Assembly (NCBI RefSeq): GCF_025685425.1
Contig: NZ_JAGTAS010000056.1
Span: forward strand, 368,939-432,938
DNA from: Terriglobus albidus
Lineage (GTDB): Bacteria > Acidobacteriota > Terriglobia > Terriglobales > Acidobacteriaceae
Reading direction: 5' to 3'
Length of the DNA stretch: 64,000 bases
Position numbers and translations under genes: made by a program. This document shows positions 1-63,741 of this stretch, in pieces; the stretch's first letter is position 1; each line of letters opens with the position of its first letter. Under the pieces are notes generated by a model that made no database searches, was not told the DNA's origin, and was given only the letters and a program-made list of their open reading frames with translations.

Positions 1-82
1 GCATCCGCATCTATGGGCGTTTTCCGCAATGAAAACGCCGCCGCACTCCTCTTCCGGGATACCCAGCAACAGGGAAATGCGA
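1..82 (+). repeat. 113-bp palindromic repeat, copy A (left-truncated)
   Basis: This is the right part of a dispersed palindromic repeat; its left arm lies outside the window. It shows the internal hairpin GGGCGTTTTC-cgcaat-GAAAACGCC and ends in ACAGGGAAATGC, the right terminal inverted repeat with one A missing. Copy B follows immediately. Confidence 0.85.
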
Positions 83-84
83 GT

Positions 85-198
85 AAAGCATTTTCCCTGT
101 AGGTGTAGTCCAGAGCATCCACATTTATGGGCGTCTTCCGCAATGAAAACGCTGCTGCACGCCCCTTCCGGGATACCCAGTAACAGGGAAAATGATCT
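85..198 (+). repeat. 113-bp palindromic repeat, copy B
   Basis: Complete copy. The left arm AAAGCATTTTCCCTGT pairs with the right arm ACAGGGAAAATGATCT. The central hairpin is slightly decayed (GGGCGTCTTC against GAAAACGC). Copies A and B are head-to-tail and fill most of the space upstream of the permease gene that starts near 280. Confidence 0.9.
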
Positions 199-278
199 AT
201 TCAAGGAACCGCAACGCAATTCCTTCCGTATAGCCCAGCAAAGAGAGTTTTGGTAGCTCCGAAGCTATTTGGAGGGGA

Positions 279-2846
279 ATGATGCTGGCAGACCTGCGGG
301 ACGCGTTTCGGCAGTTAAAGAAGGCACCGGCATTTGCGGTTACGGCGGTGGTGACCCTGGCCCTTGGAATCGGTGCGACCACCGCGATCTTCACTCTGGT
401 GCACCAGGTGATGTTGAAGTCGCTGCCGGTAGCGAAACCGGAAGAGCTCTGGAGAATCGGCGATAAGATCCGCTGCTGCAATTGGGGCGGCTATACGCAG
501 GGCAGCGATGGGGATTTCTCTCTCTTCTCCTGGGAGGCATATAAGAACTTTCGCGCGCATACACCGGAGTTCAGTGATCTGGCGGCGCTACAGGCCGGGA
601 ATGCAGCGCTCGGTGTGCGCAGAGCCGGCTCACAGGCACAGGCAGATACACGCAACGGAGAGTATGTCTCCGGGAACTTCTTCCGAACACTCGGTGTGCA
701 GCCATGGATCGGCCGCCTGATGACGGATGCGGACGATCAGGAATCGGCATCGCCTGTCGCGGTCATGAGCTATCACGTATGGCAGGAGAAGTACGGTTCC
801 GATCCTTCTGTGGTCGGCGCAAATTATCAGATCAATGGACATTCCTTTACGGTGATTGGCGTGGCGCCGCCCGGATTTTATGGCGCAAAGCTCGCCGGCG
901 GCGGGATGCCGGACTTCTGGCTTCCGCTGACGACTGAGATCATGATCGACGGCGCTACGTCGAGGTTGAAACGGCCCAACGGCAACTTCCTCGATCTGAT
1001 CGGGAGAGTTCGCCCCGGTGTCGATTCGACGACGCTGGAAGCGAAGCTGCGCGTGGAGTTTCATGACTGGCTGGCAAGTCATGTACCCGATATGGAGCCA
1101 GGCGAAAAACAGCTTTGGCAGCAACAGACGCTGCACCTGATTCCGGGTGGATCGGGAGTCGCTGCCATGCGGGACCAGTACAAGGCTGGGTTGAGGCTGC
1201 TGTTGATCGCAGCCGGGTGTGTTTTGCTGGTCGCCTGCGGCAACATCGCAAACCTGATGCTGGCCCGCGGTCTCAAGGATCGAGCGCAGACCTCTATCCG
1301 GACCGCACTGGGAGCCTCCCGGCGCCGCCTCGTGCGCCGAGCAATGGTCGAAGCAGTCACGCTGGCCTTGATTGGAGGTATCTCCGGAGTTGCTGTGGCC
1401 TACGCCGGCACGAGGCTGATTTTGTATCTGGCTCTGGAGCGTGGAAACTCCAACAACTTCGTGCCGATCAGCGCGACCCCGTCCATCCCGGCTCTGTTGT
1501 TTACGCTTGGCATCGCGGTGTTGACTGGAATCCTCTTCGGGATCGCACCTGCATGGATGACCTCACACGCCAACCCCGTAGACGCACTGCGCGGAGCGAA
1601 TCGTTCCGTTGGTGGAAAAAATTCCTGGACTCAGAAGTCGCTGGTCATCGGTCAGGCGGCGATGTCCCTGGTCTTGCTCTCGACGGCGGCTCTGCTGGGG
1701 CGGAGCCTGAGAAACCTGGAGCACCAGAATTTCGGGTTTGAGACAGAGGGCCGGTACATTGCGTGGATCAACCCGATGCTGGGCAACTACAAGCCCGAGC
1801 AACTGGAGCCGCTGTTCCGCAAGATCGACTACCGTCTGATGCAGATTCCTGGCGTACGTATGGCGGCCCCGGCTCTCTACGCTCCAATGACGGGCGACAG
1901 CTGGAATGACGGAATTCGTATCCAGGGCAGGCCGGAACCCGCGCCGAAAGAAGACACGGGGGCGGGCTGGTCCCGGGTCATGCCCGGATTCTTCGAGACG
2001 ATTGGGGCGCAGATGGTTCTGGGGAGGTCGATCGGCGAGGAAGATACCTCGACCACACGTAAGGTCGCCGTGGTCAACGAAGCGTTCGCCAGGCGATTCT
2101 TCAAGAATCAGAATCCCCTTGGCCAGCACTTCGGCATCGACAAGATCAAATATGCGGGAACGTTTGAGATTGTGGGTGTTGTGCGCGATATGCGCTACAT
2201 GACCTACGACTACAAGGATCCGGTGCGTCCGATGTTCTGGGTGCCGGAGACGCAGACGGTGCAGTACGACGATCCTGCGTTCACGGCCGGTGAGACCTGG
2301 TCGCACTATCTCTACAACATCGTGATCTGGGCTCCGGGAGCTCCTTCCGGCATGGAGGAGCAGGTAAGGAAGGCGCTGGTCAGTATCGATCCCGACCTGG
2401 TGCTCTACGGCGTTGATCCGTACAAGAAGGTCGTGAGTGCTGACTTCAAGCAGGAGAATATGATCGCGACCCTCACGACACTCTTCGGCGTGCTCGGTCT
2501 TACGTTGGCGGCCGTGGGGCTGTATGGCGTGATGGCGTATATGGTGGAGCAGCGGACGAGCGAGATCGGTGTGCGGATGGCGCTTGGCGCGAACCGCAGT
2601 GATGTCGTGCGCATGGTGCTGCATAATGCCTTCATACAGATCGCAGTGGGCCTGGCGCTCGGCATACCAGCGGCCATTGGAGCAGGGAAGCTGATGACCG
2701 ACCAACTCTTCGGTGTAAAGCCGTGGGACCCGATAATGATTACGGCGGCAGTTGTCCTGCTCGCCTTGGCTGCGCTATTGGCGTCGCTGATCCCAGCTCG
2801 TCGTGCAGCCGGTGTCGATCCAATGGTCGCCCTTAGAAGCGAGTGA
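279..2846 (+). CDS. Orphan FtsX/MacB-type ABC transporter permease (acidobacterial duplicated permease type)
   Basis: A membrane protein of 855 aa with two FtsX-like permease halves. Each half has the pattern helix, large MacB-type periplasmic domain, three helices. The N-terminus (DLRDAFRQLKKAPAF, then a helix with LALGIGATTAIF) and the C-terminal EIGVRMALGA motif followed by the last helices are typical of the duplicated orphan permeases common in Acidobacteriota. No ATPase gene is adjacent, so partner and substrate are unknown; related MacB proteins work in export or mechanotransmission. Two ATGs are adjacent at 279 and 282. GGAGG at 271-275 gives better spacing to 282, so the true start may be one codon later. 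Confidence 0.85.
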   Translation: MMLADLRDAFRQLKKAPAFAVTAVVTLALGIGATTAIFTLVHQVMLKSLPVAKPEELWRIGDKIRCCNWGGYTQGSDGDFSLFSWEAYKNFRAHTPEFSDLAALQAGNAALGVRRAGSQAQADTRNGEYVSGNFFRTLGVQPWIGRLMTDADDQESASPVAVMSYHVWQEKYGSDPSVVGANYQINGHSFTVIGVAPPGFYGAKLAGGGMPDFWLPLTTEIMIDGATSRLKRPNGNFLDLIGRVRPGVDSTTLEAKLRVEFHDWLASHVPDMEPGEKQLWQQQTLHLIPGGSGVAAMRDQYKAGLRLLLIAAGCVLLVACGNIANLMLARGLKDRAQTSIRTALGASRRRLVRRAMVEAVTLALIGGISGVAVAYAGTRLILYLALERGNSNNFVPISATPSIPALLFTLGIAVLTGILFGIAPAWMTSHANPVDALRGANRSVGGKNSWTQKSLVIGQAAMSLVLLSTAALLGRSLRNLEHQNFGFETEGRYIAWINPMLGNYKPEQLEPLFRKIDYRLMQIPGVRMAAPALYAPMTGDSWNDGIRIQGRPEPAPKEDTGAGWSRVMPGFFETIGAQMVLGRSIGEEDTSTTRKVAVVNEAFARRFFKNQNPLGQHFGIDKIKYAGTFEIVGVVRDMRYMTYDYKDPVRPMFWVPETQTVQYDDPAFTAGETWSHYLYNIVIWAPGAPSGMEEQVRKALVSIDPDLVLYGVDPYKKVVSADFKQENMIATLTTLFGVLGLTLAAVGLYGVMAYMVEQRTSEIGVRMALGANRSDVVRMVLHNAFIQIAVGLALGIPAAIGAGKLMTDQLFGVKPWDPIMITAAVVLLALAALLASLIPARRAAGVDPMVALRSE

Positions 2847-2878
2847 GAACCTTTGGATACAGATGAATTTCTTTGTCT

Positions 2879-2890
2879 GTCTCCGGAGAC
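2879..2890. promoter_or_regulatory. 12-bp perfect palindrome upstream of a secreted-protein gene
   Basis: GTCTCCGGAGAC is a perfect 12-bp palindrome about 100 bp before the ATG at 2990. It could be an operator, but only one copy was seen, so this is weak. Confidence 0.25.
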
Positions 2891-2989
2891 GTGATACAGT
2901 CGCCTCGCAGTTCAAATCTGATGTGGACGTGCGTCCCTTCGCTAACAACAAACAGTCACAAAGCTTCTGACGCTGAGGAGATATTCAGG

Positions 2990-3667
2990 ATGCGAGTTCT
3001 GTTCACTGCTGTTTTCACGCTCATTTTCGCCGGCTGGACAGGAAGCCAGCCCCATGCTCAAGTTAACGCAGCAACGCAGCCCGCGGCAGCCCAGACGGGG
3101 TGGGCATGGCCGGCAATTCCGGGGTGCCTCTCGGACCCAGCCATCACAACGCCGGGAACAACCGATTTCAGTTCGCCGGTCTGTCCTCTCTACGATCAGT
3201 TGCTGACCAGTGGCGTTACCAGGATTGAGCTTGTTTCGGCGCGTCGGCTCAATGGGGAGATGGACGGTGTTCTTTATCCCGCATTTCTTCCGGGTACAGA
3301 GGTTGTGAGCTTCCTGACCGAGGACAAATTCAATCAATCGTTCCACGGCGCAACAGGACTTGTGCGCGTCTCCGGAAAGTCAGTGACAGCACGGAATGGG
3401 TCTTGGTGGACGACCCTATCCATGGTCTCAAACAATGGAAAACTGCTCGATGCCGCGGCCATCCGGCAAAAGCTCGCGCTGCCGAATGAGCCTTCTTGTC
3501 TCGCCTATGCAGACAGCGTGCGCAGCGGAATTGTGGCTTATATGGGCGTGGTTGCGCCCGCGTTTGATCAGCCAGGAGGAGGTATTGAATTCTGGCTTCC
3601 TCCAGGAGCGGTCGTGGCCAAGAAGACAGTTGATCTCCCCGGCAGTCCTGGCTGCGGTACAAATTGA
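2990..3667 (+). CDS. Secreted protein of unknown function
   Basis: A 225-aa protein. The N-terminus (MRVLFTAVFTLIFAGW, then PHAQ) reads as a Sec signal peptide ending near residue 24. The mature part holds several cysteines and no motif I recognise. The ATG at 2990 is preferred because GAGGAG lies at 2975-2980 and the signal peptide starts there; the frame is open upstream but has no leader character. It is a single gene followed by a strong hairpin terminator. No function is proposed. Confidence 0.65.
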   Translation: MRVLFTAVFTLIFAGWTGSQPHAQVNAATQPAAAQTGWAWPAIPGCLSDPAITTPGTTDFSSPVCPLYDQLLTSGVTRIELVSARRLNGEMDGVLYPAFLPGTEVVSFLTEDKFNQSFHGATGLVRVSGKSVTARNGSWWTTLSMVSNNGKLLDAAAIRQKLALPNEPSCLAYADSVRSGIVAYMGVVAPAFDQPGGGIEFWLPPGAVVAKKTVDLPGSPGCGTN

Positions 3668-3676
3668 TTCAGTCAG

Positions 3677-3719
3677 ACGCAAGCGGGGTGAGCATAGCCT
3701 TACCTCGCTTGCGTTTCTT
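3677..3719 (+). terminator. Hairpin terminator
   Basis: ACGCAAGCGGGGT pairs with ACCTCGCTTGCGT and is followed by TTCTT, just after the stop of the secreted-protein gene. The remaining 330 bp up to the acyl-CoA ligase start contain no gene that I can support. Confidence 0.75.
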
Positions 3720-4051
3720 AGAGCTGATAGTTGATGCATACAGCGTGCGGCGACTCGGCTTAGGATAAGTGCAGCGCAACTGGTCGAGTCGCGATTGTAT
3801 GGCATGAAGACGATCGATCCCGTAACGTTGGGAGTTCTGTTGGCGACGAAATCATCTTTGCTGTCGCATTCGCGATTTGCCCCAATTAAGCCAAGTCCTG
3901 AGAATTGATTCGGTGGAGATGCTGCGAGCGGAGTAGGAACCCAGATATGGGTCAGAGGCGCCCGGCTGGATTCCGTCTTTGCTGAAAATTGAGAGGATTC
4001 AGCCGGAATGATGAATTCCTGAAACCTGTCTTCGGTATCATTCTTTCGGCG

Positions 4052-5839
4052 ATGATCCTCGACCTCCGTACCCTAAACGACCTCTTCCTCCGCGCCGCCT
4101 CCAAGGGCGACACCACGGTTGTTCTCACCCAGGCAGCCGATCACTCGTGGCGCCCCATTACCTCTGCCCAGCTCTATACCCGCGTACGCGCCTTTGCCAA
4201 AACACTGGAGTCGTGGGGTATCAAGAAGGGCGACCGTGTGGCTCTCATCAGCGAAAACCGGTGGGAGTGGGCGGTGACAGACTTTGCCGTGCTTGCCATC
4301 GGGGCCGTCGGCGTTCCGTTGTTCCCGACACTGACTGCCGAGCAGACAACCTATATGCTTAACGATTCCGGTGCCCGGATCGCGGTCGTTTCCACAAAAG
4401 AACAGTATGAGAAGCTGGCTTCAATCCACGAAAAGACGCCTGGCATCGAGCGCGTCATCGTCATGGATGCCGGGGAGTTTCCAGGCGCGGAGAGCTTCAG
4501 CAGCCTGATCGCAGATGCGGAGAAAGATCTGGCTCGCGATGCTGCTTTTGAGGCGAAGCTGGCCGAAGCGAAGCCTGAGGACCTGGCCACCATCGTCTAC
4601 ACCTCAGGTACGACGGGCGAGCCCAAAGGCGTGATGCTGACGCACAACAACATCGCGCAGAACATCAACTACACAGTCGAGTTCATCGATTTCAATCCCT
4701 CCGACTCGTGCATCAGCTTCCTTCCGTTGTCACACATCACGGCTCGCATCCTCGATTACGAGATGTACGCCAACGGCTGCGTACTGGCGTATGTATCGCG
4801 TCTGGATCGCCTGCCGGCCGCGATGCAGACAGTGAAGCCGACGATTCTGGTGGCTGTACCGCGCGTTTTTGAACGAATCCGGCACTCGGCAGAGACGAAG
4901 TCATTGGCCTCCCCCATCAAGGCGAAGATCTTTGCCTGGGCCATCGGCGTGGGGACGAAGCACCGCGAGACAGTGCTGGCCGGAAAAATACCCGCGAGCC
5001 CTCTCTGGAAGCTTGCCAACAAGCTGGTTTTCTCGAAGATCAAGGATGCCTTCGGTGGACGGGTCCGCCTGTATATCGCCGGTGGCGCCCCTCTCGGCCT
5101 GGATAACGCCTACTGGTTTGCAGCGGCGAACATTCGGATTCTGGAGGGCTACGGTCTGACCGAGACCTCTCCGGTCATTGGACTGAACCACCCCATCTAC
5201 AATCGCGTCGGTTCTATTGGCAAGCCGCTTTCCAATCTTGTGGTGCGTTTCGCTGACGATGGTGAACTGGAAGTGAAGGGTCCATCGGTCTTTCAGGGTT
5301 ACTGGAACAAGCCGGAAGCGACCAAAGAGGTCTTTACTGAGGACGGCTTCTTCAAGACTGGGGATATCGGTCATAGCGATGATGACGGTTTCATCTTTAT
5401 TACTGACCGCAAGAAGGAGCTGATCAAACTCTCTGCCGGCAAGTTCATTGCTCCATCGTTTGTTGAGGGCAAGCTGAAGGCTTCGAACCTGGTGGGCAAT
5501 GTAGCGCTGTTGGGCGATAAGCGGAAGTTTGTATCGGCGTTGATCTCGCCCAACTTCGCCAATCTGGCGCTTGCCGCCAAGCAGCAGGGAACAGAGCTGC
5601 CGTCCGACCGCAAAGCCGCCCTGGAGAGTCCGGCGGCCCAGTCGCTGTATAAAGCCGTAATTGCTGACGTGAACAGCACTCTGGCGCCATTCGAGAAGAT
5701 CAAGAAGTACCGTGTGGTTGTCGATGAATGGACACCGGAGTCGGGCGAACTGACGCCGAGCATGAAGCTGAAGCGGCGAGTGATCAACGACAAGTACAAG
5801 GACGTGATCAACGATATCTACTCCGTCGACACCGAGTAG
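4052..5839 (+). CDS. Long-chain fatty acid--CoA ligase (AMP-forming)
   Basis: A 595-aa member of the ANL adenylate-forming superfamily, FadD15/long-chain type. It would activate fatty acids with ATP and CoA at the inner face of the membrane for degradation or lipid synthesis. Visible motifs are the P-loop YTSGTTGEPKGVMLTH near residue 185, GYGLTETSPV around residue 370, and the hinge region FITDRKKELIKLSAGK around residue 450, which carries the aspartate and lysines of the family. The ATG at 4052 (MILDLRTLNDLF) is chosen; the frame stays open 21 codons upstream to a TTG, but that stretch does not look like the family. It appears to be a single-gene unit. Confidence 0.9.
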   Translation: MILDLRTLNDLFLRAASKGDTTVVLTQAADHSWRPITSAQLYTRVRAFAKTLESWGIKKGDRVALISENRWEWAVTDFAVLAIGAVGVPLFPTLTAEQTTYMLNDSGARIAVVSTKEQYEKLASIHEKTPGIERVIVMDAGEFPGAESFSSLIADAEKDLARDAAFEAKLAEAKPEDLATIVYTSGTTGEPKGVMLTHNNIAQNINYTVEFIDFNPSDSCISFLPLSHITARILDYEMYANGCVLAYVSRLDRLPAAMQTVKPTILVAVPRVFERIRHSAETKSLASPIKAKIFAWAIGVGTKHRETVLAGKIPASPLWKLANKLVFSKIKDAFGGRVRLYIAGGAPLGLDNAYWFAAANIRILEGYGLTETSPVIGLNHPIYNRVGSIGKPLSNLVVRFADDGELEVKGPSVFQGYWNKPEATKEVFTEDGFFKTGDIGHSDDDGFIFITDRKKELIKLSAGKFIAPSFVEGKLKASNLVGNVALLGDKRKFVSALISPNFANLALAAKQQGTELPSDRKAALESPAAQSLYKAVIADVNSTLAPFEKIKKYRVVVDEWTPESGELTPSMKLKRRVINDKYKDVINDIYSVDTE

Positions 5840-5868
5840 AGAATTGAGGAGCCACAGCGTTTAGTCGT

Positions 5869-6127
5869 GTCATCCTGAGCGTCGGGGTCCCCAGCGAACA
5901 AGTTCGCTGGGGTGATTAGCGAAGGACCTGATTAATAGGCCGGGCATCTTCGAAAGCTACAGTCCCCGTCGCCCCATTCTTCGTAGCGAAGCTACGAAGG
6001 TGGGGCAACGCGCTGTGCGCGACCGTTTGTGCGGACTTAAGACGATATGTAGAGAAGCAGATTTCTCCACTATGGTTTCAGCCCAGCCAGCGAAGCTGAC
6101 TAGGGACCCCGAACTCTGCGAAATGAC
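5869..6127. repeat. Composite intergenic palindromic element
   Basis: The 357 bp between the ligase and the phosphatase hold no gene. They are bounded by an imperfect inverted pair, GTCATCCTGAGCGTCGGGGT at 5869 and the complement of GTCATTTCGCAGAGTTCGGG ending at 6127. Inside are two strong hairpins: CCCCAGCGAAC-aa-GTTCGCTGGGG at 5889-5912, and CTTCGTAGC-gaa-GCTACGAAG at 5979-5999 with a flanking GCCCCA/TGGGGC pair. The first hairpin recurs at 9298-9317, which suggests a REP-like repeat module. Confidence 0.55.
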
Positions 6128-6196
6128 AAACAAAGTGGCTGTAGTTTATGAAGCGGACGTTGGGGATGGATGCCTTTCAAGAATTAGAATCCCGGC

Positions 6197-6991: not shown

Positions 6992-6996
6992 AGATG

Positions 6997-7027
6997 ATAT
7001 CCCGCCCTCTCGATGAAGGCGGGATAT
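6997..7027. terminator. Bidirectional hairpin terminator
   Basis: ATATCCCGCC pairs perfectly with GGCGGGATAT between two convergent genes. It can serve either strand. Confidence 0.7.
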
Positions 7028-7039
7028 GGATGTCTCTTC

Positions 7040-7804: not shown

Positions 7805-7959
7805 ATTGCTCCTGCGTACAGCCCATGTGGGGCCCAAATGCATTCTATGCCCGGGAGTGGCAACCTAAATACAGCCAGAGATGAAGTGGATGGACCAATC
7901 GATAATTTTTTGCTGGCTTACAATCACCCTTGTTGGTTTGTTAATACGAAGAGGTTTGG

Positions 7960-9258
7960 ATGGAGCTCACAACAACGCAGTCGATCTCGGGTGGACCAGA
8001 GACGACAAACATGAAGGCCCTCTCGACAGCCACCGTGCTGTTCTTTATGTGGGGGTTTCTAACATGCCTGAATGACATTCTGATTCCTCACCTGAAAATG
8101 GTCTTCGAACTCAGCTATGCGCAGGCCATGCTGGTGCAGTTTGCGTTCTTCTCCTCCTACTTCATCTTCGCGATTCCATCGGGCAAGCTGGTGGACTTCA
8201 TCGGATACAAGCGCACCATGATCGCCGGCCTGCTGACGATGGCCGTAGGCGCGCTGCTGTTTCTCCCCGCGGCCACTCTGGCGGCCTTCCCACTCTTTCT
8301 CGCTGCTCTGGTTGTGCTTGCCGCCGGCATTACTGCCTTGCAGGTCGCAGCGAATCCGTACGTGGCGAACCTTGGTCCGCAGCGTACGGCCAGCAGCCGG
8401 TTGAATCTGGCACAGGCCTTCAATTCGTTGGGAACGACGGTGGCCCCTTATGTGGGCAGCGCCTTGATTCTTGGCGCTGCGGTCGAAGCTCCGAAGCTGG
8501 GCAGCCTTACTCAGGCAGCGCTGCAGCAGTTCCGCGCGCAGCAGGCCTCGACAGTCCGTCTGCCGTATCTCGGTATTGCCGGTTTGTTGATCGTTCTGGC
8601 GGTGGCGCTGGCAGTCATCAAGCTGCCGCCGATGGGTGGGCTGACGCAGGACTTCCGTCCTGATGAGCGCGGCTCCTCTTGGGGGGCGCTTCTTGGACAT
8701 CCGCAGCTTCTGCTGGGAGCCGTGGCCATCTTCGTCTATGTCGGCGCCGAGGTGACGATCGGAAGCTTTTTGGTGAACTACATGCACCTGCCCGAGATCA
8801 GCGGCTTCACCGAAGCAGTGGCGGCGAAGTATGTATCGATCTACTGGTTAGGCGCGATGATCGGACGGTTTGTCGGTTCGGCTGTACTGCAGAAAATGAA
8901 GACATCATCGCTGCTGGCGATGGCTGCTACGGCTGCGTGCCTATTGGTACTGCTCAGCATGTTCAGTTCGGGCCATACAGCAATGTGGTCGATTCTTGCG
9001 GTGGGCTTGTTCAACTCCATCATGTTCCCAAGTATCTTCACCCTCGGTATCGCAAATCTGGGCGAGTTGACGAGCAAAGGGTCGAGTCTGATGGTCTGCG
9101 CCATTGTCGGCGGAGCGGTGATTCCGCTGCTTTCCGGCTTTGTGGCCGATAAGATCGGGATCCAACATGCGCTGATGGTGGCGGCTGCCTGCTACGTGTA
9201 CATCGTGGTCTTCGGTTTGCGCGGTGACCGCAGTGCTACGGAGCACCGCGCAGCTTAG
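7960..9258 (+). CDS. Sugar MFS transporter (FucP / glucose-galactose type)
   Basis: A 432-aa, 12-helix major facilitator of the FucP/GluP family, which brings sugars such as fucose, glucose or galactose in with protons. The family features FFMWGFLTCLNDILIPHLK in helix 1 and QVAANPYV in helix 4 are present. AAGAGG lies just before the ATG. Substrate is not decided by sequence alone, and no sugar catabolic gene is adjacent except divergent deoC. Its stop codon touches the left arm of a palindromic repeat. Confidence 0.88.
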   Translation: MELTTTQSISGGPETTNMKALSTATVLFFMWGFLTCLNDILIPHLKMVFELSYAQAMLVQFAFFSSYFIFAIPSGKLVDFIGYKRTMIAGLLTMAVGALLFLPAATLAAFPLFLAALVVLAAGITALQVAANPYVANLGPQRTASSRLNLAQAFNSLGTTVAPYVGSALILGAAVEAPKLGSLTQAALQQFRAQQASTVRLPYLGIAGLLIVLAVALAVIKLPPMGGLTQDFRPDERGSSWGALLGHPQLLLGAVAIFVYVGAEVTIGSFLVNYMHLPEISGFTEAVAAKYVSIYWLGAMIGRFVGSAVLQKMKTSSLLAMAATAACLLVLLSMFSSGHTAMWSILAVGLFNSIMFPSIFTLGIANLGELTSKGSSLMVCAIVGGAVIPLLSGFVADKIGIQHALMVAAACYVYIVVFGLRGDRSATEHRAA

Positions 9259-9410
9259 AGCAATTCTCCTAAAGGTGCGGAGCGGAGTATCGGGTCTCCA
9301 GCGAACGAGTTCGCTGGGGTGAAGTCTTGGCTGTTTGCGCCGTTTTCCTGTGAAGAAAACGGTATTCGCAGATTTATCCAGAGCTACAGTATTAGGAGAA
9401 TTGCTTTAGC
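9257..9410 (+). repeat. Diverged palindromic element (second family)
   Basis: The terminal inverted repeats AGAGCAATTCTCCTAA (9257-9272) and TTAGGAGAATTGCTTT (9392-9407) enclose two hairpins: CCAGCGAAC-ga-GTTCGCTGG (9298-9317) and GCCGTTTTC-ctgtgaa-GAAAACGG. The plan of AGAGCA-type ends plus an internal GTTTTC/GAAAAC stem matches the 113-bp repeat, but the sequence differs. The left end overlaps the stop codon of the upstream gene, and the right end stops two bases before the next ATG. Confidence 0.75.
9394..9398 (+). promoter_or_regulatory. Candidate ribosome-binding site lying inside a repeat arm
   Basis: AGGAG in the right terminal repeat lies 13 bases before the ATG at 9412 and is the only purine-rich site there. 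If the arms fold together, this site would be sequestered in the stem. Confidence 0.4.
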
Positions 9411-9411
9411 T

Positions 9412-10602: not shown

Positions 10603-10708
10603 ATCGCTTTTGTTTGTCATTTCGTAGCGCAGCGGAGAAATCTGCTTTCCTGCCCATCCTTGAATAGCCGTACACAAGGCAGTGAAAACGGTTCGAGCTT
10701 CGCTCGAA

Positions 10709-10737
10709 TGTCCCATGTCCCTTAGGGACATGGGACA
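10709..10737. terminator. Bidirectional hairpin terminator
   Basis: TGTCCCATGTCCC, loop tta, GGGACATGGGACA form a perfect 13-bp stem between two convergent genes. A second small hairpin, TTCGAGC-ttc-GCTCGAA, lies at 10692-10708. The stretch from 10616 (GTCATTTCGTAGCGCAGC) resembles the ends of the element at 5869-6127. Confidence 0.65.
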
Positions 10738-10750
10738 CCCAGACTTGGGT

Positions 10751-13056: not shown

Positions 13057-13059
13057 GTT

Positions 13060-13172
13060 AAAGCATTTTTCCTGTTGCTGGGTATCCCGGAAGGGGCATG
13101 CAGCGGCGTTTTCATTGCGGAAAACGCCCATAGATGCGGAAACCTACACTACACCTACAGGGAAAATGCTCT
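13060..13172 (-). repeat. 113-bp palindromic repeat, copy C
   Basis: Complete copy in the opposite orientation to copies A and B. Its arms are AAAGCATTTTTCCTGT and ACAGGGAAAATGCTCT, and the internal stem is GGCGTTTTC/GAAAACGCC. It occupies the space between the metallopeptidase start and the stop of the next gene. Confidence 0.92.
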
Positions 13173-13195
13173 AGCTCAACCTGCGTTGAAATCTG

Positions 13196-15907: not shown

Positions 15908-15911
15908 ATAT

Positions 15912-50102: not shown

Positions 50103-50235
50103 TTCGCTGACGGTACTCCTGCGCTAGTGAGATTGCCCCAAATGATAATTGCTCAAGGTGTCGATAGAGAAGTCAATCGATTGCGGAAGGCTTATTCGCT
50201 CATTTTTTCTGCGCATTGGGCGCAGTAAAGCGTTT

Positions 50236-50346
50236 AGAGCATTTCCCTGTAGGTATACAGTAGGGCATCCGCATCTATGGGCGTTTTCCGCAATGAAAAC
50301 GCCGCTGCACTCCTCTTCCGGGATACCCAGCAACAGGGAAAATGCG
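50236..50346 (+). repeat. 113-bp palindromic repeat, copy D (tandem unit 1)
   Basis: The left arm AGAGCATTTCCCTGT and right arm ACAGGGAAAATGCG enclose the internal GGGCGTTTTC/GAAAACGCC hairpin. It is the first unit of a head-to-tail triplet. Confidence 0.93.
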
Positions 50347-50349
50347 ATT

Positions 50350-50460
50350 AGAGCATTTCCCTGTAGGTATACAGTAGGGCTTCCGCATCTGTGGGCGTTT
50401 TCCGCAATGAAAACGCCGCCGCACTCCTCTTCCGGGATACCCAGCAACAGGGAAAATGCG
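50350..50460 (+). repeat. 113-bp palindromic repeat, copy E (tandem unit 2)
   Basis: Nearly identical to copy F. Three bases (ATT) separate it from each neighbour, giving a 114-bp period. The arms are as in copy D. Confidence 0.93.
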
Positions 50461-50463
50461 ATT

Positions 50464-50576
50464 AGAGCATTTCCCTGTAGGTATACAGTAGGGCTTCCGC
50501 ATCTGTGGGCGTTTTCCGCAATGAAAACGCCGCTGCACTCCTCTTCCGGGATACCCAGCCACAGGGAAAATGCTCT
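50464..50576 (+). repeat. 113-bp palindromic repeat, copy F (tandem unit 3)
   Basis: This copy ends in the full arm ACAGGGAAAATGCTCT, while D and E end in ATGCG. The triplet therefore carries one complete right end, on the outer side toward the aldo/keto reductase gene. Confidence 0.93.
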
Positions 50577-50634
50577 ATATCGCCTCGAATCCTATTGAGA
50601 TTGCATGACATCTAAGCGGAACGAGGGAGACGAG

Positions 50635-51492: not shown

Positions 51493-51496
51493 ATAG

Positions 51497-52959: not shown

Positions 52960-52972
52960 GCGAGATGCAGGC

Positions 52973-56462: not shown

Positions 56463-57966
56463 AAAGCCCTACAAGAAGCCAGGATTTTTGGACAAAATCC
56501 TGATGCACGCATCCATACAATGTCGTTTCGTCATCGCCTTGTGCAATCAGATCCCATTGCTCCTGTCCCCAGATCCGTTCATTCCACCATTCGCCGCCCG
56601 CAAGCCACGGTCCATAGGCATGCCGAACCGTATAGCGATGTCCGCGAAAGAAAAAGCCTGATGGTCTGCCGCAATCGAGTGTGATGCTGAGCCGTTCCGG
56701 CGGGCATACGCGCCGAAGGCAACCATATGCGGTGCGGGAAACCTTTGTGGTCGAACTGCCTGAAGGAACAGCAAATGGCTCCATATGGAAACCAGGAGAA
56801 GTATGTGTGTCATCGAGTACAGCACGGCCTACGTTGTCGTCACCGACCAGCGCCGCAATGCGCGCGAGCGTGACATCCAGCCGGCCTGACTCAGGAAGCT
56901 GTGGAGAGAACAATCCGAGTTGAACTTTGCTGGTAACTCCCGGTTCGGCGTGAAGACAGACCTTTGAGATGGGAGCACCTGCGGGGTGAGCTTCAAGATC
57001 GAGATGAAGCAGCTTCAACCACAGATGTCTATCGTTGGTAGGAACGCGAGGAGAGACAGTGCGGCAGTGTGTTCCTCCCCCGTCCAGATGGAGTTCGACC
57101 GTTACCGCTGCGAGTGCATAGACACGCATGGCCGCGCGGACGATGAGCTGTTCCAGCATAACGGCAACGCCAAAAAGCAGAGATTCGAGATTGTCGAGCG
57201 GATAGTCCAGCTCCGCTGTTTCTTCAAGTACAAACGGAACATCGATAGGCTGGAAGAGATGAGGCATGGTTCCGGTAGCCATCTGCTGCAGGCGTTTGCC
57301 ATCCTGTCCCAAACGGGCAATGAGGTCTGTCCGCGGCAGCGCCGCCAACATGCCAAGGGTACGGATACCCCACCGAGACAGTGTCTCAGCATGTGCTTCC
57401 GAGATGGCTAAAACCGATAAGGACAGGGGAGCCAATGCCATTGATTCTGCGCCGGATGGGACAACGACAATCGCTGTTCTGGCAGGGAGCCCCTTCGCGA
57501 GCAGAATGCTCGCATGGAAGTTTCCGCTTACCGCAACCTGGGCGGAGAGACCAAGCAATGCCACTCGCTGTCGCAGAGTCTTCGCAAGAACTTCAGGAGG
57601 GCCAAAAAGTGCTTCGGTCCCGGTGATATCCAGGCAGCAGAGAAAGACATTCTCCTCTTCCTGTAGTTCAACGCGCGGAGAATGGGCTCCAGCACACTCC
57701 AGAAGCGCGGTCTTCGCCGCCGCTTCGACAGATCTGGAGCGGGGCAGAATGGTGATGCTTCCGAAGGTATCCACTTCGACCTTCGTCATTCCACGTTGCA
57801 CGCCCAATAACCGGGCCCTGGTATTTAACGAGCACACCGTTTCAGCCGGTGGCTCGCCATCCAGAATCACGCATGGCTTCTCGCGCAGCTCAGGCCGCAG
57901 GCGTAGCAGCGCCTGCGCAGGGAACTCTCTTACCAGGAGACAGGCATACAACTCACCGGAGTTCAT
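56455..57966 (-). CDS. imuB: ImuB, Y-family polymerase-like mutasome protein
   Basis: A 503-aa protein of the DinB/Y family that lacks catalytic residues. The usual N-terminal DxD region reads ACLLVREFPAQALLR, and the SIDE motif is replaced (FLCCLDITGTEALFG). Inactive ImuB serves as an adaptor, and a clamp-binding-like motif QLGLF is found at about residues 349-353, as expected for docking to the beta clamp. ATG 57966 overlaps the imuA stop (ATGA). It recruits DnaE2 at lesions. Confidence 0.92.
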   Translation of the reverse strand: MNSGELYACLLVREFPAQALLRLRPELREKPCVILDGEPPAETVCSLNTRARLLGVQRGMTKVEVDTFGSITILPRSRSVEAAAKTALLECAGAHSPRVELQEEENVFLCCLDITGTEALFGPPEVLAKTLRQRVALLGLSAQVAVSGNFHASILLAKGLPARTAIVVVPSGAESMALAPLSLSVLAISEAHAETLSRWGIRTLGMLAALPRTDLIARLGQDGKRLQQMATGTMPHLFQPIDVPFVLEETAELDYPLDNLESLLFGVAVMLEQLIVRAAMRVYALAAVTVELHLDGGGTHCRTVSPRVPTNDRHLWLKLLHLDLEAHPAGAPISKVCLHAEPGVTSKVQLGLFSPQLPESGRLDVTLARIAALVGDDNVGRAVLDDTHTSPGFHMEPFAVPSGSSTTKVSRTAYGCLRRVCPPERLSITLDCGRPSGFFFRGHRYTVRHAYGPWLAGGEWWNERIWGQEQWDLIAQGDDETTLYGCVHQDFVQKSWLLVGLYD

Positions 57967-58988
57967 TGTGCACCTGCCCATGGAGTGCGGCTCTGCCAGG
58001 AAGCAGTGCGGGCCGCTTGCGGAGGTTTGCGCATTGACACGACATTGCTTGCCGCTTGCAGGAAGCGTTGACGCACGATCTCGATGCGCGGCCGCATCCC
58101 ACTGAAGACCGTGTGGGCTTCAAGAATCGGTTCGGCTTCCAGTAGACGTAGTTGCAGTTCCGAGCCACTCTTCGCGCAGGGATACTGAGTCAAAAGCAGA
58201 ATGCAGGCTTGCGTCTTTTCCGCAGCTACACGATAGCGATGCCACGTCGATAGCTCAATGCGCGCCACGTATTGCGGCGCGATACCTGCAAGATCAAGAA
58301 CAATGGCGCTGAAACCTCCAGTCTGCAAGAGCAGATCTGTGGTGCGAAGAGCGCGCTCAATTGCGTCGTAGTGCCTCGCGCGGCGCTTTCTGCGCGTGAA
58401 GGGAATTGAAGGGATAGATTCGCCTGAAGCCAGGCGATTTCTCTTTGTCGCAGATGGCTCAACAGGTTTGGGCAATGGAGTCTCTCCTGTGAAAAGTCCG
58501 GCCATTGCTTCGGAGAGCCCGCGGATCTCCGTTCTGGGATGAGGACCGAATCCACCGCCATGCAGCCCCTTTTTTGGAGAGCCAGGGATGAAGTACTTCT
58601 GAGGCAACGTTACTGCCTTTGTGGTCTTCGTTGAGGCCTCTGCAACATCAGCACAACGGATCCACAGCAAGCGGTCTAAGTCCACTCCGATGGCAGCAGC
58701 AGAGGCAGGATCGAAGGCATTGGCCGAGTCGACCCAGGCGCACACCTTGTTTGCCTCGGTCACTTGCGCCAGGAATGAGAGAGCCACTGAAGTTCGTCCG
58801 GTACATTCAGCGCCGACCAACTCCGTTAAAGCGCCCAGGGGAAGCCCTCCTCCTGACAACTCATCCAACTCAGCCAGGCCCGTGGGTATCTGCGGCCGGA
58901 TAAGCCTGGGAGCCGGCGTCAAAGCTGAGGGAATCTTCCGTGCAAGAGCTGACTCAACCTGCAGTCGAATTGTGGAGGCGAGCGGCAT
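57963..58988 (-). CDS. imuA: ImuA, RecA-like mutasome protein
   Basis: A 341-aa protein with a RecA-fold N-terminal half. IPTGLAELDELSGGGLPLGALTELVG precedes the degenerate P-loop GAECTGRTSVAL, which lacks the usual lysine, and CAWVDSANAFDP corresponds to the RecA Walker-B-like region. A basic spacer (KRNRLASGESIPSIPFTRRK) interrupts the fold. It is the first gene of the imuA-imuB-dnaE2 cassette. ATG 58988 is chosen; an in-frame TTG lies 14 codons upstream. No clear LexA box of a known type was found upstream. Confidence 0.9.
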   Translation of the reverse strand: MPLASTIRLQVESALARKIPSALTPAPRLIRPQIPTGLAELDELSGGGLPLGALTELVGAECTGRTSVALSFLAQVTEANKVCAWVDSANAFDPASAAAIGVDLDRLLWIRCADVAEASTKTTKAVTLPQKYFIPGSPKKGLHGGGFGPHPRTEIRGLSEAMAGLFTGETPLPKPVEPSATKRNRLASGESIPSIPFTRRKRRARHYDAIERALRTTDLLLQTGGFSAIVLDLAGIAPQYVARIELSTWHRYRVAAEKTQACILLLTQYPCAKSGSELQLRLLEAEPILEAHTVFSGMRPRIEIVRQRFLQAASNVVSMRKPPQAARTASWQSRTPWAGAQ

Positions 58989-59209
58989 ATTCTTCGCCTT
59001 ATATTCGCCCTTTCCGGCTGTGGAAGGCAAGTCAATTAAATTCGAGAATATGCTCGGTGATTGCTATCTATCTCAAAGTAAATAAGATACTTAGCAGAAT
59101 GAGACGGGCGTTTGCTAGGTTCGGTACCCGACCCTTACGGCCGGCTATTTCGAAGGTTCCATTGACAGGTGAATACCTGATATCTGGATGTCGATATCCT
59201 GGGTGCCTG

Positions 59210-59306
59210 GATGCCCCATATCTGACGGTATCATCGCCAGATGTGGGAGTAGATACTACACTACATTCCTGCAAAACCCACATCTCGGCCATGCCGAGAT
59301 ATGGGG
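59210..59306. repeat. Paired hairpins in a gene-poor stretch
   Basis: The 490 bp from imuA to the alkyltransferase-like gene hold no gene that I can support. CCCCATATCTG/CCAGATGTGGG lies at 59214-59247. ATCTCGGC-cat-GCCGAGAT lies at 59282-59300, within CCCACATCTC...ATATGGGG. The segment GCCGAGATATGGGGCACC recurs, inverted and nearly identical, at 61024-61040. Confidence 0.5.
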
Positions 59307-59480
59307 CACCAATCCGGACCACACAACCCGAATGAATGTGCGTGCTGATAGGAAAGCAATTCGGAGATCGACGACAACAAGACTCTCTGGCATCGATCAG
59401 CTCTCGGTGCAGCAGACTAAGAAGAGATTGCTGCGGGACGCATCGCGTCCGGAAGAGCAGCGCGACCGCGCGTTTGGCTG

Positions 59481-59768
59481 ATGATTCTCTCTATTCCTCC
59501 TGGCAAGGTCAGCACGTATGGCAGAGTCGCCGCGGCGGCCGGCTATCCACGTTACCATCGTGCCGTGGCGCGGCTTCTACGGACGGATCCGCCAGATAAT
59601 CTGCCGTGGCACCGTGTGCTTGGCGCCGAAGGCGCGATCAAGCTGCATGGAGATGCCGCAAGGGAGCAGCGCTCACGCCTCAAACTGGAAGGCGTCCGCT
59701 TTATTGGCGAGAAGGTGGATATGGAACGGCATGAGCACACCTTTAGACCCTGGGAGGTCTACGAGTGA
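59481..59768 (+). CDS. Alkyltransferase-like protein (MGMT DNA-binding domain without active Cys)
   Basis: A 95-aa protein matching the DNA-binding half of O6-methylguanine methyltransferase. It contains IPPGKVSTYGRVAAAAGYPRYHRAVARLLR, and PWHRV in place of the catalytic PCHRV, so it is an ATL-type protein that flags O6-alkylguanine for excision repair. The first residues of the domain (normally F-x-x-RVW) are missing from ATG 59481. The same frame upstream reads RVWL but has no start back to a stop, while the +1 frame upstream (...EEQRDRAFG) ends in a TGA overlapping the ATG. Confidence 0.8.
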   Translation: MILSIPPGKVSTYGRVAAAAGYPRYHRAVARLLRTDPPDNLPWHRVLGAEGAIKLHGDAAREQRSRLKLEGVRFIGEKVDMERHEHTFRPWEVYE

Positions 59769-59874
59769 GTCTGTCTAATCCCTCTGCAAGACCCCGTCGC
59801 GGTAACATCCCGTGATAAGGCGGGTGGATTCGATCCTCCACACCGCCTCAATCGTGTCTCGTCATGTTGACGTT

Positions 59875-60282
59875 CTAGGCCTTCGTCAGATTTTCGAAGC
59901 CCTCTGCTGCTTTCCGAACATCCTCGGGGAAATCGTTGATCTCTTGAATCTGACGGACCTCGATGATCTCGTTGTCTGACATCGGTGCGCGTTTTGCCCA
60001 TTCAATGGCTTCTTCCCGCGAGCGCACCTGAATGATCCAATAGCCTCCAACGACCTCTTTCGCCTCGGCGAACGGCCCATCTGTAACCGTAGCTTTGCCG
60101 TCGGTGTAAGAAATACGTGCACCGGTCGAAGGGGGTAGAAGCCCATCGAGAGCAAGCAGTACGCCGGCCCTCTGCAAACTCCTGTTGTACTCCATCATCT
60201 TGGCCACTGCTTCGGCGCTTGGGACCGCGTCTGAAGCTGCATTTTGATAGCCCTTGGGGATCACGATCATCATGAAACGCAT
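59875..60282 (-). CDS. YciI-related (DGPF) domain protein
   Basis: A 135-aa ferredoxin-like-fold protein of the YCII/DGPF family. It starts MRFMMIVIPKGY and carries the signature DGPFAEAKEVVGGYWIIQV with a conserved Asp. Many such proteins are encoded next to ECF sigma factors, but none is next to this one. GGAGAAG precedes the ATG. The biochemical role is unknown. Confidence 0.88.
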   Translation of the reverse strand: MRFMMIVIPKGYQNAASDAVPSAEAVAKMMEYNRSLQRAGVLLALDGLLPPSTGARISYTDGKATVTDGPFAEAKEVVGGYWIIQVRSREEAIEWAKRAPMSDNEIIEVRQIQEINDFPEDVRKAAEGFENLTKA

Positions 60283-60561
60283 TTGCTCTTCTCCTGTGAT
60301 TGATTTCAGCCAAATTGGCCGTTCTATCTAAACGTCGAATGGGAGGTGCCGATTTCTACCATGCAACAATAAAATCCTGGTTCTTTTGTCCGGTGCCTGG
60401 CAGATCACGTTCGACAATCTGCGGCAAACTACAGATCGGTCCCATTTTGGGCCGGGGACTAAAGTCTGATGGCCGGGCCTTGCTGTTGGCAGCACCGATT
60501 CAGGCTACGGTTTAAAGACCGGCTAACAACTGTTGTAATTGCCTTGGTTAGGAATCTTCAG

Positions 60562-60876
60562 ATGGGTAAGCCCGCATCTTCCCCCCGTACGTCGTCAAGA
60601 CCCCCGCTCGTAGTGGATTACGCTGTCAATGGCGTTGTCACCATCGCAGCAAAGATATTCGCATCGCTGTTCATGTCCCTGTTCTTCGTCATGCGGCTTT
60701 CTGCTCGGTTGCCAGGAGAGAAGCCTGAGTCTGCGAAGACTAATAAGGGTTCTGACGTCGTCTGCATTTTGCAAGAGCGTTTTCCCGGCTGGGCTGTTTA
60801 CCAGTCAAAAGAAACGTTCCAGTCATCGAGGCACACCGAAAAGCGTACCGCTGCCGGTAGAGGATTTTTCTTGTAG
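60562..60876 (+). CDS. Possible small membrane protein (weak)
   Basis: An open frame of 104 aa from ATG 60562 with one hydrophobic stretch (VNGVVTIAAKIFASLFMSLF). Its last residues come from repeat copy G. There is no clear ribosome-binding site and no recognised family. The 800 bp between the YciI gene and the large protein at 61087 hold nothing firmer than this. Confidence 0.2.
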   Translation: MGKPASSPRTSSRPPLVVDYAVNGVVTIAAKIFASLFMSLFFVMRLSARLPGEKPESAKTNKGSDVVCILQERFPGWAVYQSKETFQSSRHTEKRTAAGRGFFL

Positions 60877-60971
60877 GTGTATGTCGGGCTTCCGCATCTA
60901 TGGGCGTTTTCCGCAATGAAAACACCGCTGCACGTCCCCTTCCGGGATACCAGCAACAGGGAAAATGCTCT
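60859..60971 (+). repeat. 113-bp palindromic repeat, copy G
   Basis: Diverged left arm (AGAGGATTTTTCTTGT) and intact right arm (ACAGGGAAAATGCTCT). The internal stem is mutated on one side (GGCGTTTTC against GAAAACACC). Confidence 0.88.
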
Positions 60972-61023
60972 AATGCAAAGCTTTTCAGATAGAGATCCGC
61001 ACCCGTACGGGTGCCACGGGCGG

Positions 61024-61053
61024 GTGTCCCATATCTCGGCTTAGCCGAGATGG
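61024..61053. repeat. Hairpin shared with the 59.3-kb region
   Basis: GGTGTCCCATATCTCGGC is followed by tta and GCCGAGATGG. It matches, with one change, the reverse complement of the segment ending at 59309. It lies 34 bp after the stop of the gene at 61087 on the minus strand and may act as its terminator. Confidence 0.5.
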
Positions 61054-61086
61054 TTTGCAGGATCTTTTAGGAATACCTGCCGAACT

Positions 61087-63369
61087 TCAACGGCTCGCAA
61101 TCCAATTTGCCGCCGAATGCCCGTAATTCACCTGGAAGGTTCCCGGCGCCGCCTGCACAACCGCATAAGAAAGGCCTGCTACAGTTCGCTTTTGCCACTG
61201 GACGGTCGCTCCATTGAGCGAAATGGTAGTCAAATCACCGGCGGAGGAGTGGATCGGTAGCATTGCTTCGATGCCACTTCCTCCGATTCCCACGTCGATT
61301 GAAAAAGAAAGCTGGCAGTTTGACCATTTGAGATCCCGAAACCGGGAAGCATTCCGTCCGTCAAGCCATTTCAATAGCTGTGCAGCAGTAATGATCGGGA
61401 CGTGATGTTTTTGTGCTGATGAGATGATGGCGTCAGCGCCGGGAGACTTTACCTCATCGTTATGCATATTGGCGGTGAATACGCCGAAGTACTCCTCGCT
61501 TCCCAGCGCATTCGCGAGGAGCGTATCAATCGTGAATGGATAGCTCTGTTTTGATTCGTCTGTCATCTGGGTGGCAGCTTGATAGACATCAATCACGCTC
61601 CCATCACGGCGGGCAAAGCGCATCGGGAACCCAGAGCCGGTAAATAACCCCGGCGTATCTTTGACCCACTTCGGGGGCCAGTAGTAGTAGTTCGTATCGA
61701 GCCGAATCCTGTGGTTCAACTCTACTTGTGGCTGCGTATCGTAATCGCCCCAGGTGATGCAATCAGTCCGGTTGCTGACAGGAGGCGGAACATTGGGATA
61801 CTTTGCGGCAAAACCCTGAAGTTGCTGCAAATAGAGATCGTTTACAAATTCGCGATCGATTTCTCGTCTTACAACACCGTCGCTCTCTCGAACCTGATGG
61901 GCCGGCCAATCTGTGCATGCTGTATAAACGTGCAATCCGATCTCGAATCCCTGCTTCACGAAGTCGTCAGCTTGTTTCGAAGAGATTGATCCGACAAAAA
62001 TATGCGAGGTCGCACGGATGCACTCCCATTTTTCGAGTGAACAGTTGCTGGCGCTTTTGCGTTGATAGTTACGGAAGCGTCCCGCCGTTCCTCCATGTCC
62101 ATGATCGTCCCCGGTCATAACGATGACGGCCTTGAGACCGCGGGGCAAATACCAGAAATGCGGAAGCGGTGTTTTGTTCGCATTAAAGGTGATGATCAAG
62201 TTGGCCAGCAGCCGTTGTTGTATGTCCGCTTGCGGAATCGCAATCACTTCTCGGGCCACCCAATCTGGTTGGGGATCCTTTTCGTTCGCCCCATAAAACA
62301 GGTCATCTGACCGTATCGGCGGGATACCATCTCGTTCATGTGCCGACCACTCGGGATTACCCTGGCGCGTATAGACAACGGACTTTGCCAGATCGTAGCT
62401 AAACACGATGACATTGCCGGCGCCAAGCGTTACAGAACTGACCGCGGGGAATTGAGTCGCAGTTTTGGCATCCGTATACAACGTGGCAAATACGGTCGTT
62501 TTATCAGCAGTGAATAGATCGGCGTCGCCATGGAACTGGATCGCCTGCTGAATCAACCCGGCGCCCGCTGGAGTCTTCGAGTTGATGCGCAAATAACCGC
62601 CATGCTGAACTGCCTTGTCCGCTTCGGAAGTTGGCGGATTAAACCCGAAGCTCTCCGCAAGTTTTCGGGATGGCCGCATTGCGATCAGTGTTCCACCGCT
62701 TCGCACCCAGCCGGCCAATATCTGGATCTGGCTCGTATCGACAGGCATTTCCCCCAGAAGCACGATGTCATGGCTGGCGAGTTCCTGTGCGGAAAGCTGC
62801 GTTATGTCTTCGACGTCAAACTCATTCAATCCTTCATTGCGAAGAATCTCCGCATAGTATTGGCTGAAGCCATTTGCCTTACTGGTGACAAGCAGGATGG
62901 GGCCGTCTGGCCCTTGTTCCGGCGATCCGGCAGCCGCAACGCCGGTCGTGAACCGCCATTTCATGTCTCCCGCCAGGGAACGATTGTGCTGATCGAGGAG
63001 GCCTTGTTTGCCTCCCCGCAGTGTTACCTCATAGGTGGAACCCTGGCTCAATGCGGCGAGGGGCGTGAGAACGGCCTTGTTTGTTGCATCGTCGTAAGAG
63101 ACCGTCGCCGGAATGCTCCTGCCCTGTTCATCACGCAAGCTGAAGGTCCCCGGAAGTATCGTTTCGGGTGACATCGGCTTATTGAAGGCTAATGTGATCG
63201 GTTCCTGGGGCTCGACACCTACCTCGCCGGCGTAAGGGCTGGCAACCACGACTCGTGGCACGGTAGTAAAACCACGGAGCAGCGGTGCGACCAAGACAAC
63301 GCATATCACTGCGAAGAGGAGAGCGGCAGCAATCGCGAAGCTCCCCCTGATCTTGAGATCCGAAGTCAC
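61087..63369 (-). CDS. Membrane-anchored protein with Ig-like, amidotransferase-like and deacetylase-like domains
   Basis: A 760-aa protein. An N-terminal helix (SFAIAAALLFAVICVVLVAPLL, residues 10-31) anchors the rest outside the cytoplasm. A Big_5/SbsA-type Ig domain follows at about 40-145 (FNKPMSPETILPGTFSL). Residues 155-235 look like a class I amidotransferase/ThuA-like fold (HDIVLLGEMPVDTSQ). About 405-660 resembles a NodB-type polysaccharide deacetylase with TGDDHGHGG (418-427) and EIGLHVYTA (476-484). GTG start with AAGGAGGGA five bases upstream. The domain calls are by eye. Confidence 0.75.
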   Translation of the reverse strand: MTSDLKIRGSFAIAAALLFAVICVVLVAPLLRGFTTVPRVVVASPYAGEVGVEPQEPITLAFNKPMSPETILPGTFSLRDEQGRSIPATVSYDDATNKAVLTPLAALSQGSTYEVTLRGGKQGLLDQHNRSLAGDMKWRFTTGVAAAGSPEQGPDGPILLVTSKANGFSQYYAEILRNEGLNEFDVEDITQLSAQELASHDIVLLGEMPVDTSQIQILAGWVRSGGTLIAMRPSRKLAESFGFNPPTSEADKAVQHGGYLRINSKTPAGAGLIQQAIQFHGDADLFTADKTTVFATLYTDAKTATQFPAVSSVTLGAGNVIVFSYDLAKSVVYTRQGNPEWSAHERDGIPPIRSDDLFYGANEKDPQPDWVAREVIAIPQADIQQRLLANLIITFNANKTPLPHFWYLPRGLKAVIVMTGDDHGHGGTAGRFRNYQRKSASNCSLEKWECIRATSHIFVGSISSKQADDFVKQGFEIGLHVYTACTDWPAHQVRESDGVVRREIDREFVNDLYLQQLQGFAAKYPNVPPPVSNRTDCITWGDYDTQPQVELNHRIRLDTNYYYWPPKWVKDTPGLFTGSGFPMRFARRDGSVIDVYQAATQMTDESKQSYPFTIDTLLANALGSEEYFGVFTANMHNDEVKSPGADAIISSAQKHHVPIITAAQLLKWLDGRNASRFRDLKWSNCQLSFSIDVGIGGSGIEAMLPIHSSAGDLTTISLNGATVQWQKRTVAGLSYAVVQAAPGTFQVNYGHSAANWIASR

Positions 63370-63430
63370 AGCTCCCTCCTTAGCGCCGTTCGTCGTTCTG
63401 GTCAGGGTACAAAGACCGCCTTGCCATGGC

Positions 63431-63463
63431 GCATAAGCTTATGCAATTTGTGAACCAAATTGC
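63431..63463. promoter_or_regulatory. Two adjoining palindromes upstream of the 760-aa protein gene
   Basis: GCATAAGCTTATGC (63431-63444) is a perfect 14-bp palindrome. It runs directly into GCAATTTG-tgaac-CAAATTGC (63443-63463). Both lie 60-95 bp upstream of the GTG start on the minus strand, where a repressor or activator could bind. Confidence 0.45.
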
Positions 63464-63627
63464 CAGTGCACCTGTAAGTTATTTGTTTTGATAATTTGCG
63501 GGCGAGAAATCGTGAAGGCGAGCCAGGGCGTTATTGAACATTGCAAAACACTGCATACATCGAACTGCGGTGGATACGATAGTTTTCACCGTCCAGAGAT
63601 TGTCTTCGTCAAGAGTGCGGGATAGTT

Positions 63628-63741
63628 AGAGCGTTTTCCCTGTAGGTGTAGCCCAGAGCATCCGCCTCTATGGGCGTTTTCCGCAATGAAAACGCCGCTG
63701 CACGCCTCTTCCGGGATACCTAGCAACAGGGAAAATGCTCT
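63628..63741 (+). repeat. 113-bp palindromic repeat, copy H
   Basis: Complete copy with arms AGAGCGTTTTCCCTGT and ACAGGGAAAATGCTCT and the internal GGGCGTTTTC/GAAAACGCC stem. It ends 19 bp before the 3' end of tRNA-Ser. Confidence 0.93.

Follow-up and report, generated by a model that had tools for sequence, protein, structure and literature searches.

A TA-bounded miniature inverted-repeat element of Terriglobus albidus and its insertion at gene ends

The dispersed repeat of Terriglobus albidus is a ~112 bp miniature inverted-repeat element (MITE), GAGCATTTTCCCTGT...ACAGGGAAAATGCTC, set between two TAs, a reading already offered in the initial annotation and borne out by terminal inverted repeats, a 2 bp TA duplication, element-free sites in a relative and a high copy number. 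What is unusual about this otherwise known kind of element is its insertion-site biology, and what is new here is a gene-ending TAG that is built from the target TA and a G of the element. We think it quite likely that the repeat is a non-autonomous, TA-inserting DNA transposon whose ends, GAGCATTTTCCCTGT, would be substrates for a putative transposase supplied in trans; it would insert at TA, with G-N-TA-R preferred in one orientation and two target bases duplicated.

Copies in the window, the genome and its relatives

All eight copies first reported in the window (the whole stretch of 64 000 nucleotides that was analysed) are present (Table 1), and it also holds a copy of a sister family (family II, the element itself being family I) that had been overlooked. 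The ends listed are set by taking TA as the duplicated target. The four-unit array at the left edge starts outside the window, and there is an assembly N just upstream of position 1 (contig C50 near 368940).

Table 1. Family I and family II copies in the window
Feature	Coordinates	Strand	Remarks
Family I, unit 3 of four-unit array, cut by window edge	1..83 (copy 1-82)	+	Ends in array junction GCGAG before next TA
Family I, last unit of four-unit array	84..199 (copy 85-198)	+	TA at 84-85 and 198-199
Family II (sister)	9256..9408	+	TA at 9256-9257 and 9407-9408; ORF 7960-9258 stops at the TAG formed by the left TA+G
Family I	13059..13173	-	TA at 13059-13060 and 13172-13173; the G002 site holds a copy without one end
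Family I, unit 1 of three-unit array	50235..50348	+	TA at 50235-50236
Family I, unit 2 of three-unit array	50349..50462	+	Junction GCGATTAGAGC on both sides; TA at 50349-50350
Family I, unit 3 of three-unit array	50463..50577	+	TA at 50463-50464 and 50576-50577; ends in GCTCTA
Family I	60858..60972	+	TA at 60858-60859 and 60971-60972
Family I	63627..63742	+	TA at 63627-63628 and 63741-63742; a tRNA-Ser gene starts 19 bases further

A genome-wide search for further copies, suggested as a check in the initial annotation, finds far more than a few: the 24-base core has 347 matches with up to 3 mismatches (143 forward, 204 reverse) and the reversed control pattern none. The end pattern TAGAGCATTTTCCCTG is matched 450 times in this genome (G000; 6,104,258 bases in 58 contigs), allowing 1 mismatch and counting each end, about equally on the two strands. 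In the 1.2 Mb that was bulk-read (C50:51012-451011 and C28:1-800000, of ~6.1 Mb) there are 101 model hits at 90 loci, and 91 hits score at least 50, some of the weaker hits belonging to the sister family; there is no strand bias (44 plus, 47 minus). Genes were called with our own ORF-scoring script, and the statement that copies lie between genes holds for most of them, although 7 of the 81 classified loci in this 1.2 Mb share more than 20 bp with a called gene. All 14 TA-bounded inverted repeats found in 400 kb are family I or its sister. At 112 bp the element is a short multicopy repeat without a coding gene, and its terminal inverted repeats of ~15 bp show symmetrical changes between subfamilies. 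The consensus over 238 copies is TA-GAGCATTTTCCCTGTAGGTGTAGTGTAGGGCTTCCGCATCTATGGGCGTTTTCCGCAATGAAAACGCCGCTGCACTCCTCTTCCGGGATACCCAGCAACAGGGAAAATGCTC-TA, with mutually pairing ends and a central hairpin of 9 bp.

Among 19 genomes of the genus the end pattern occurs in bulk in only four (G000, 450 matches; G002, 290; G012, 253; G015, 218), with a single match in three of the other 15 and none in 12. A search of 61 genomes of the genus, family, order and class gives whole-element matches in six, those in G010 and G035 being partial only. The exact core is found, among the matches listed, in two metagenome-assembled genomes (MAGs), Acidobacteria bacterium SH_60_12 and Acidobacteriaceae bacterium Bin6.3, in at least 73 stretches, and no match to the element is seen in plasmids and phages at an E-value of 0.01. 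When G000 and G002 are compared by synteny, 31 sites are filled in G000 only and 12 in G002 only, giving 43 sites that lack a copy in the sense of a gap of at most 60 bp in the partner genome; a further 11 or 12, depending on the starting genome, are shared and four are rearranged. The empty sites that were to be looked for in a close relative thus exist, the partner species being about 84-90 % identical, and at least two of the 43 (D595875 and D687003) hold deleted remnants. Forty of the 43 could be resolved, 17 with both flanks well aligned and 23 with a weaker flank match. The three-unit array of the window is itself absent from G002, in which the site reads CGTT-TA-TATCG.

Target sites and gene ends

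The 17 well-aligned sites lacking a copy read TA in 14 cases, CA in two and TG in one, and the TG target carries TG on both sides of the inserted element, which argues that two target bases are duplicated; the proposed check for a target-site duplication accordingly yields one of 2 bp, mostly TA, the target expected of a MITE derived from an IS630/Tc1-type transposon. Across 214 loci, 121 have TA on both sides, 22 have TG on the left and TA on the right, five show the mirror change, and 11 have non-TA bases on both sides, five of these as identical pairs. The empty site reads TA at two loci whose left end is not TA (CA in one, TG in the other), so that mutation is the likely origin of those left ends. 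At two non-TA sites (C376699 and D781941) the left and right bases are unlike, which counts against the transposon explanation. Insertion is orientation-biased, with the motif GNTAR: on the left flank G stands at position -2 in 59 % of 163 cases (background 28 %) and C at -3 in 53 % (background 30 %), and a purine follows the right TA in 84 % of 181 (background 45 %). The preference for G is also seen away from stop codons (59 % of 37). A bias tied to orientation was unexpected, being unusual for an element with nearly identical ends, and it too counts against the explanation that we favour.

Of 82 loci, 26 have a called gene whose stop codon is precisely the TAG that the target TA forms with the first G of the element, 16 times at the left end and 10 times at the right. 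Landings in stop signals make up about a third to a half of insertions. The original sequence is a TAA or TAG that closes an open frame of 100 codons or more at 21 of the 40 resolved sites (8 of the 17 well-aligned ones), compared with 743 of the 6037 non-coding TAs of G000 (12.3 %); the 100-codon open frame is here a proxy for a gene end and not proof of a gene. In a test independent of gene calls, in which frame 0 is the one that reads this TAG as its stop, frames 0, 1 and 2 are open for 60 codons at 75, 27 and 25 of 156 left ends and at 58, 27 and 28 of 177 right ends, against 636, 444 and 433 of 2800 control TARs outside coding sequence, and the loci of the two MAGs alone give 31, 10 and 6 of 58 left ends and 32, 8 and 17 of 77 right ends. 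None of the window's five family I loci clearly occupies a gene's stop codon; the family II copy at 9256 does.

Expressed per available TA, insertions number 21 in 552 at stop codons (3.8 %), 8 in 258 at 1-10 nt after them (3.1 %), 5 in 442 at 11-30 nt and 12 in 1005 at 31-100 nt (about 1.2 % out to 100 nt), 20 in 4043 in other non-coding DNA (0.5 %) and 12 in 27405 in coding sequence (0.04 %). The stop codon as a special target of the enzyme was considered and rejected, since the density 1-10 nt past the stops is not lower than in them (8/258 versus 21/552, P=0.69), and the similar density just past the stops makes tolerance at gene ends the preferred reading. Insertions are rare in coding sequence and tolerated at and just past gene ends, with selection as the probable cause. 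Both ends begin with G, so insertion into a TAA or TAG leaves an in-frame TAG and stops fall among the harmless targets.

Tandem arrays and the sister family

Copies also stand head to tail. The junction pattern AATGCGANTARAGCATTT (up to 1 mismatch) is found 35 times in G000, four times each in G012 and G015 and twice in G002, with none for the control. By hand count, 17 of 26 multi-copy loci have an odd junction of the GCGANTA type, whereas six have the plain GCTCTA(G/A)AGC that is expected of insertion beside a copy. The last unit of an array keeps GCTC, and the units of a given array closely resemble each other (96 % for the three-unit array of the window). One site has three units in G000 and one each in G002, G012 and G015. 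The copy numbers of the array containing an N and of those at contig ends (L004 and L006) are uncertain because arrays break the assembly. The odd junction was examined, and rejected, as a copy of the left flank made by microhomology; such microhomology fits some loci (L026 and L006), although the overall score, 27 of 75 matches over 15 of the 17 arrays, is no better than that of shuffled flanks (P=0.31). At some loci units would multiply into arrays that later shrink, the probable route being recombination of nearly identical copies, and our guess is that the arrays descend from one founding array with disabled inner ends and that recombination drives their growth and loss.

Five shared sites have full-length single copies on both sides; two of these pairs are close relatives and three are no closer than unrelated copies. 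Together with one TA that holds family II in G000 and family I in G002 (that of the overlooked copy in the window), the three unlike pairs suggest that some TAs have probably been hit repeatedly.

The sister family is likewise TA-bounded, has the layout TAGAGCAATTCTCCTAAAGG...GCCGTTTTC...GAAAACGGC...TTAGGAGAATTGCTCTA and is found in the same genomes; 19 copies are kept after competition with the family I model. Its frame bias is alike (frames 0, 1 and 2 open at 6, 1 and 0 of 11 left ends and 7, 3 and 3 of 13 right ends), and at least twice it has inserted into family I copies. The inner palindrome of the window copy, CCAGCGAACGAGTTCGCTGG, looks like a separate REP-type insert. G010 has two copies (L044 and L049) with the family I centre and other ends, possibly a third family. 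We note also a family I copy in G002 (L293 743-1121; C1:353744-354118) split by a MITE-like element of ~260 bp with long perfect ends beginning GAGGGTGTGTCATCAAACTC, and a further dispersed repeat of ~80 bp at about 12290-12375 of L206 that has many matches in G002.

These features could be drawn together into a more specialized picture, which we consider rather unlikely. The ends would be shaped for stop-codon use, TA plus G restoring TAG from either side; the enzyme would be one that recognizes G-N-TA-R in one orientation, other than a plain IS630 transposase; the stop codon would be the insertion niche; and arrays would grow in tandem by way of the defined GCGANTA junction, which would conceal the inner ends from this enzyme and let an entire array move.

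The mobilizing enzyme and related systems

That an enzyme encoded elsewhere mobilizes the element, as the initial annotation proposed, is plausible, and a DDE transposase acting in trans fits the two-base duplication, the inverted ends and the element-free sites. We found no long element bounded by a matching pair of ends, and hence no autonomous partner, in the 2.35 Mb scanned, in which the only pair of ends more than 300 bp apart spans 4.15 kb and has unlike ends. An apparently longer element of 375 bp in G002 turned out to be a family I copy split by a different inverted-repeat element. Five DDE_3 loci (two each in G000 and G002, one in G015 and none in G012) were rejected as an IS630 source, these ends being absent from them at up to 3 mismatches; there is an apparent loose likeness of IS630-type ends to those of the element (TTCCTGCA to TTCCCTGTA), and a source of this type that is extinct or lies in unread sequence is possible. 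Matches of the IS427 type (PF13340) are limited to one in G012, with none in G000, G002 and G015.

The alternative suggested at the outset, a large REP or BIME-type element, is not supported. A REP or REPIN moved by a RAYT (Y1 tyrosine) transposase would insert as a single strand 3′ of a short target without duplication, the right TA being the element's own, and such an origin might explain why the left flank is more informative than the right, why the left dinucleotide is the more variable and why two non-TA sites have unlike sides. The genome has 10 Y1_Tnp matches. However, copies lie within ~1 kb of only two of these 10 loci, and on one side only, so that no Y1 gene flanked by the same ends is seen; the element is ~3 times the length of a REP, with long symmetrical ends and no strand bias, and the TG target with TG on both sides, together with the identical pairs at five of the 11 non-TA loci, points to a duplication. 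On balance we judge movement by a RAYT improbable. One RAYT-like Y1 transposase gene (L039 1369-1809) has a family I copy (about 1963-2080) about 150 bp upstream.

A site-specific recombinase (serine, tyrosine or IS110-like) using a TA core is no more persuasive, and there seems little chance that it is the agent. It would form a circle junction GCTC-TA-GAGC and take its orientation from unequal target half-sites, and would account for the orientation-biased GNTAR target, the two-base core common to the target and both ends, and the tandem arrays; the sites are nevertheless very many and the motif loose, and no recombinase-bearing element with these ends is seen in the 2.35 Mb.

One property of the sequence fits a passively moved element less readily, since the interior of a MITE need not be conserved. 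Divergence from the consensus is 3.0 % in the centre, 6.9 % in the ends and 12.6 % in the spacers, although the core may look somewhat more conserved than it is, the search model having been trained on core-detected copies. At 11 sites filled in G000 and G002 alike, there are changes at 16 of 293 positions in the centre, 30 of 282 in the ends, 83 of 514 in the spacers and 104 of 1116 in the flanks (centre versus spacers, P=3.7×10−6), which suggests that the centre is constrained after insertion or that copies exchange sequence. Selection at the RNA level was dropped as an explanation, because an early excess of wobble-keeping changes (51 versus 17, hand count in 60 copies) vanished in 238 copies, in which transitions keep a wobble pair 118 times and break the pair 102 times in the ends and 22 and 19 times in the centre. 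A functional RNA or transcription-end structure kept by the host, rather than mobile DNA, would suit the constrained hairpin and the enrichment at and after stop codons, but is very improbable given sites empty in a species about 84-90 % identical, the restriction of abundant copies to 4 of the 19 genomes of the genus, transitions that break pairs as often as they keep a wobble, mixed orientation to genes and no Rfam family match except a tRNA.

The wider interest of the element lies in showing how an insertion at TA can spread cheaply through a genome packed with genes: with a G next to the TA, it can land safely in every TAA or TAG stop, an idea open to testing in further TA-targeting MITEs that have G or A as the first base of their ends. 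The four carriers, species with mutually empty sites, form a natural series for gain rates, repeated hits on one TA, the growth and loss of arrays and the search for the enzyme. Among titles and the openings of abstracts, with subscription journals mostly outside the search, we found no description of this repeat or of a stop-restoring bacterial MITE, and its novelty is to that extent unproven.

The comparisons that follow are made by description. Among similar systems is RUP of the pneumococcus, an element of about 107 bp with inverted ends, a TA target, more than 100 copies and a presumed mobilization in trans by an insertion sequence, IS630-Spn1 (PMC2229807, PMC3049150); it resembles the T. 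albidus element in size, ends, target and copy number, although RUP is AT-rich and a matching insertion sequence was not found here. The Correia elements of Neisseria are also small palindromic MITEs, with more than 120 copies (PMC10969869), stop-codon use being unmentioned in the available part of that account. In the BOX elements of the pneumococcus the number of units varies at one locus, and it is the inner module boxB that multiplies (PMC3049150), whereas in T. albidus whole elements stand head to tail with a common odd junction. ERIC, or RU-1, of the enterobacteria is a palindrome of about 127 bp with TA at its ends and a TA duplication (PMC2759123, PMC2229807), and at the end of one gene an RU-1 copy has removed the stop codon and lengthened the protein (PMC2759123); there the element took a stop away, whereas here its end supplies the TAG.
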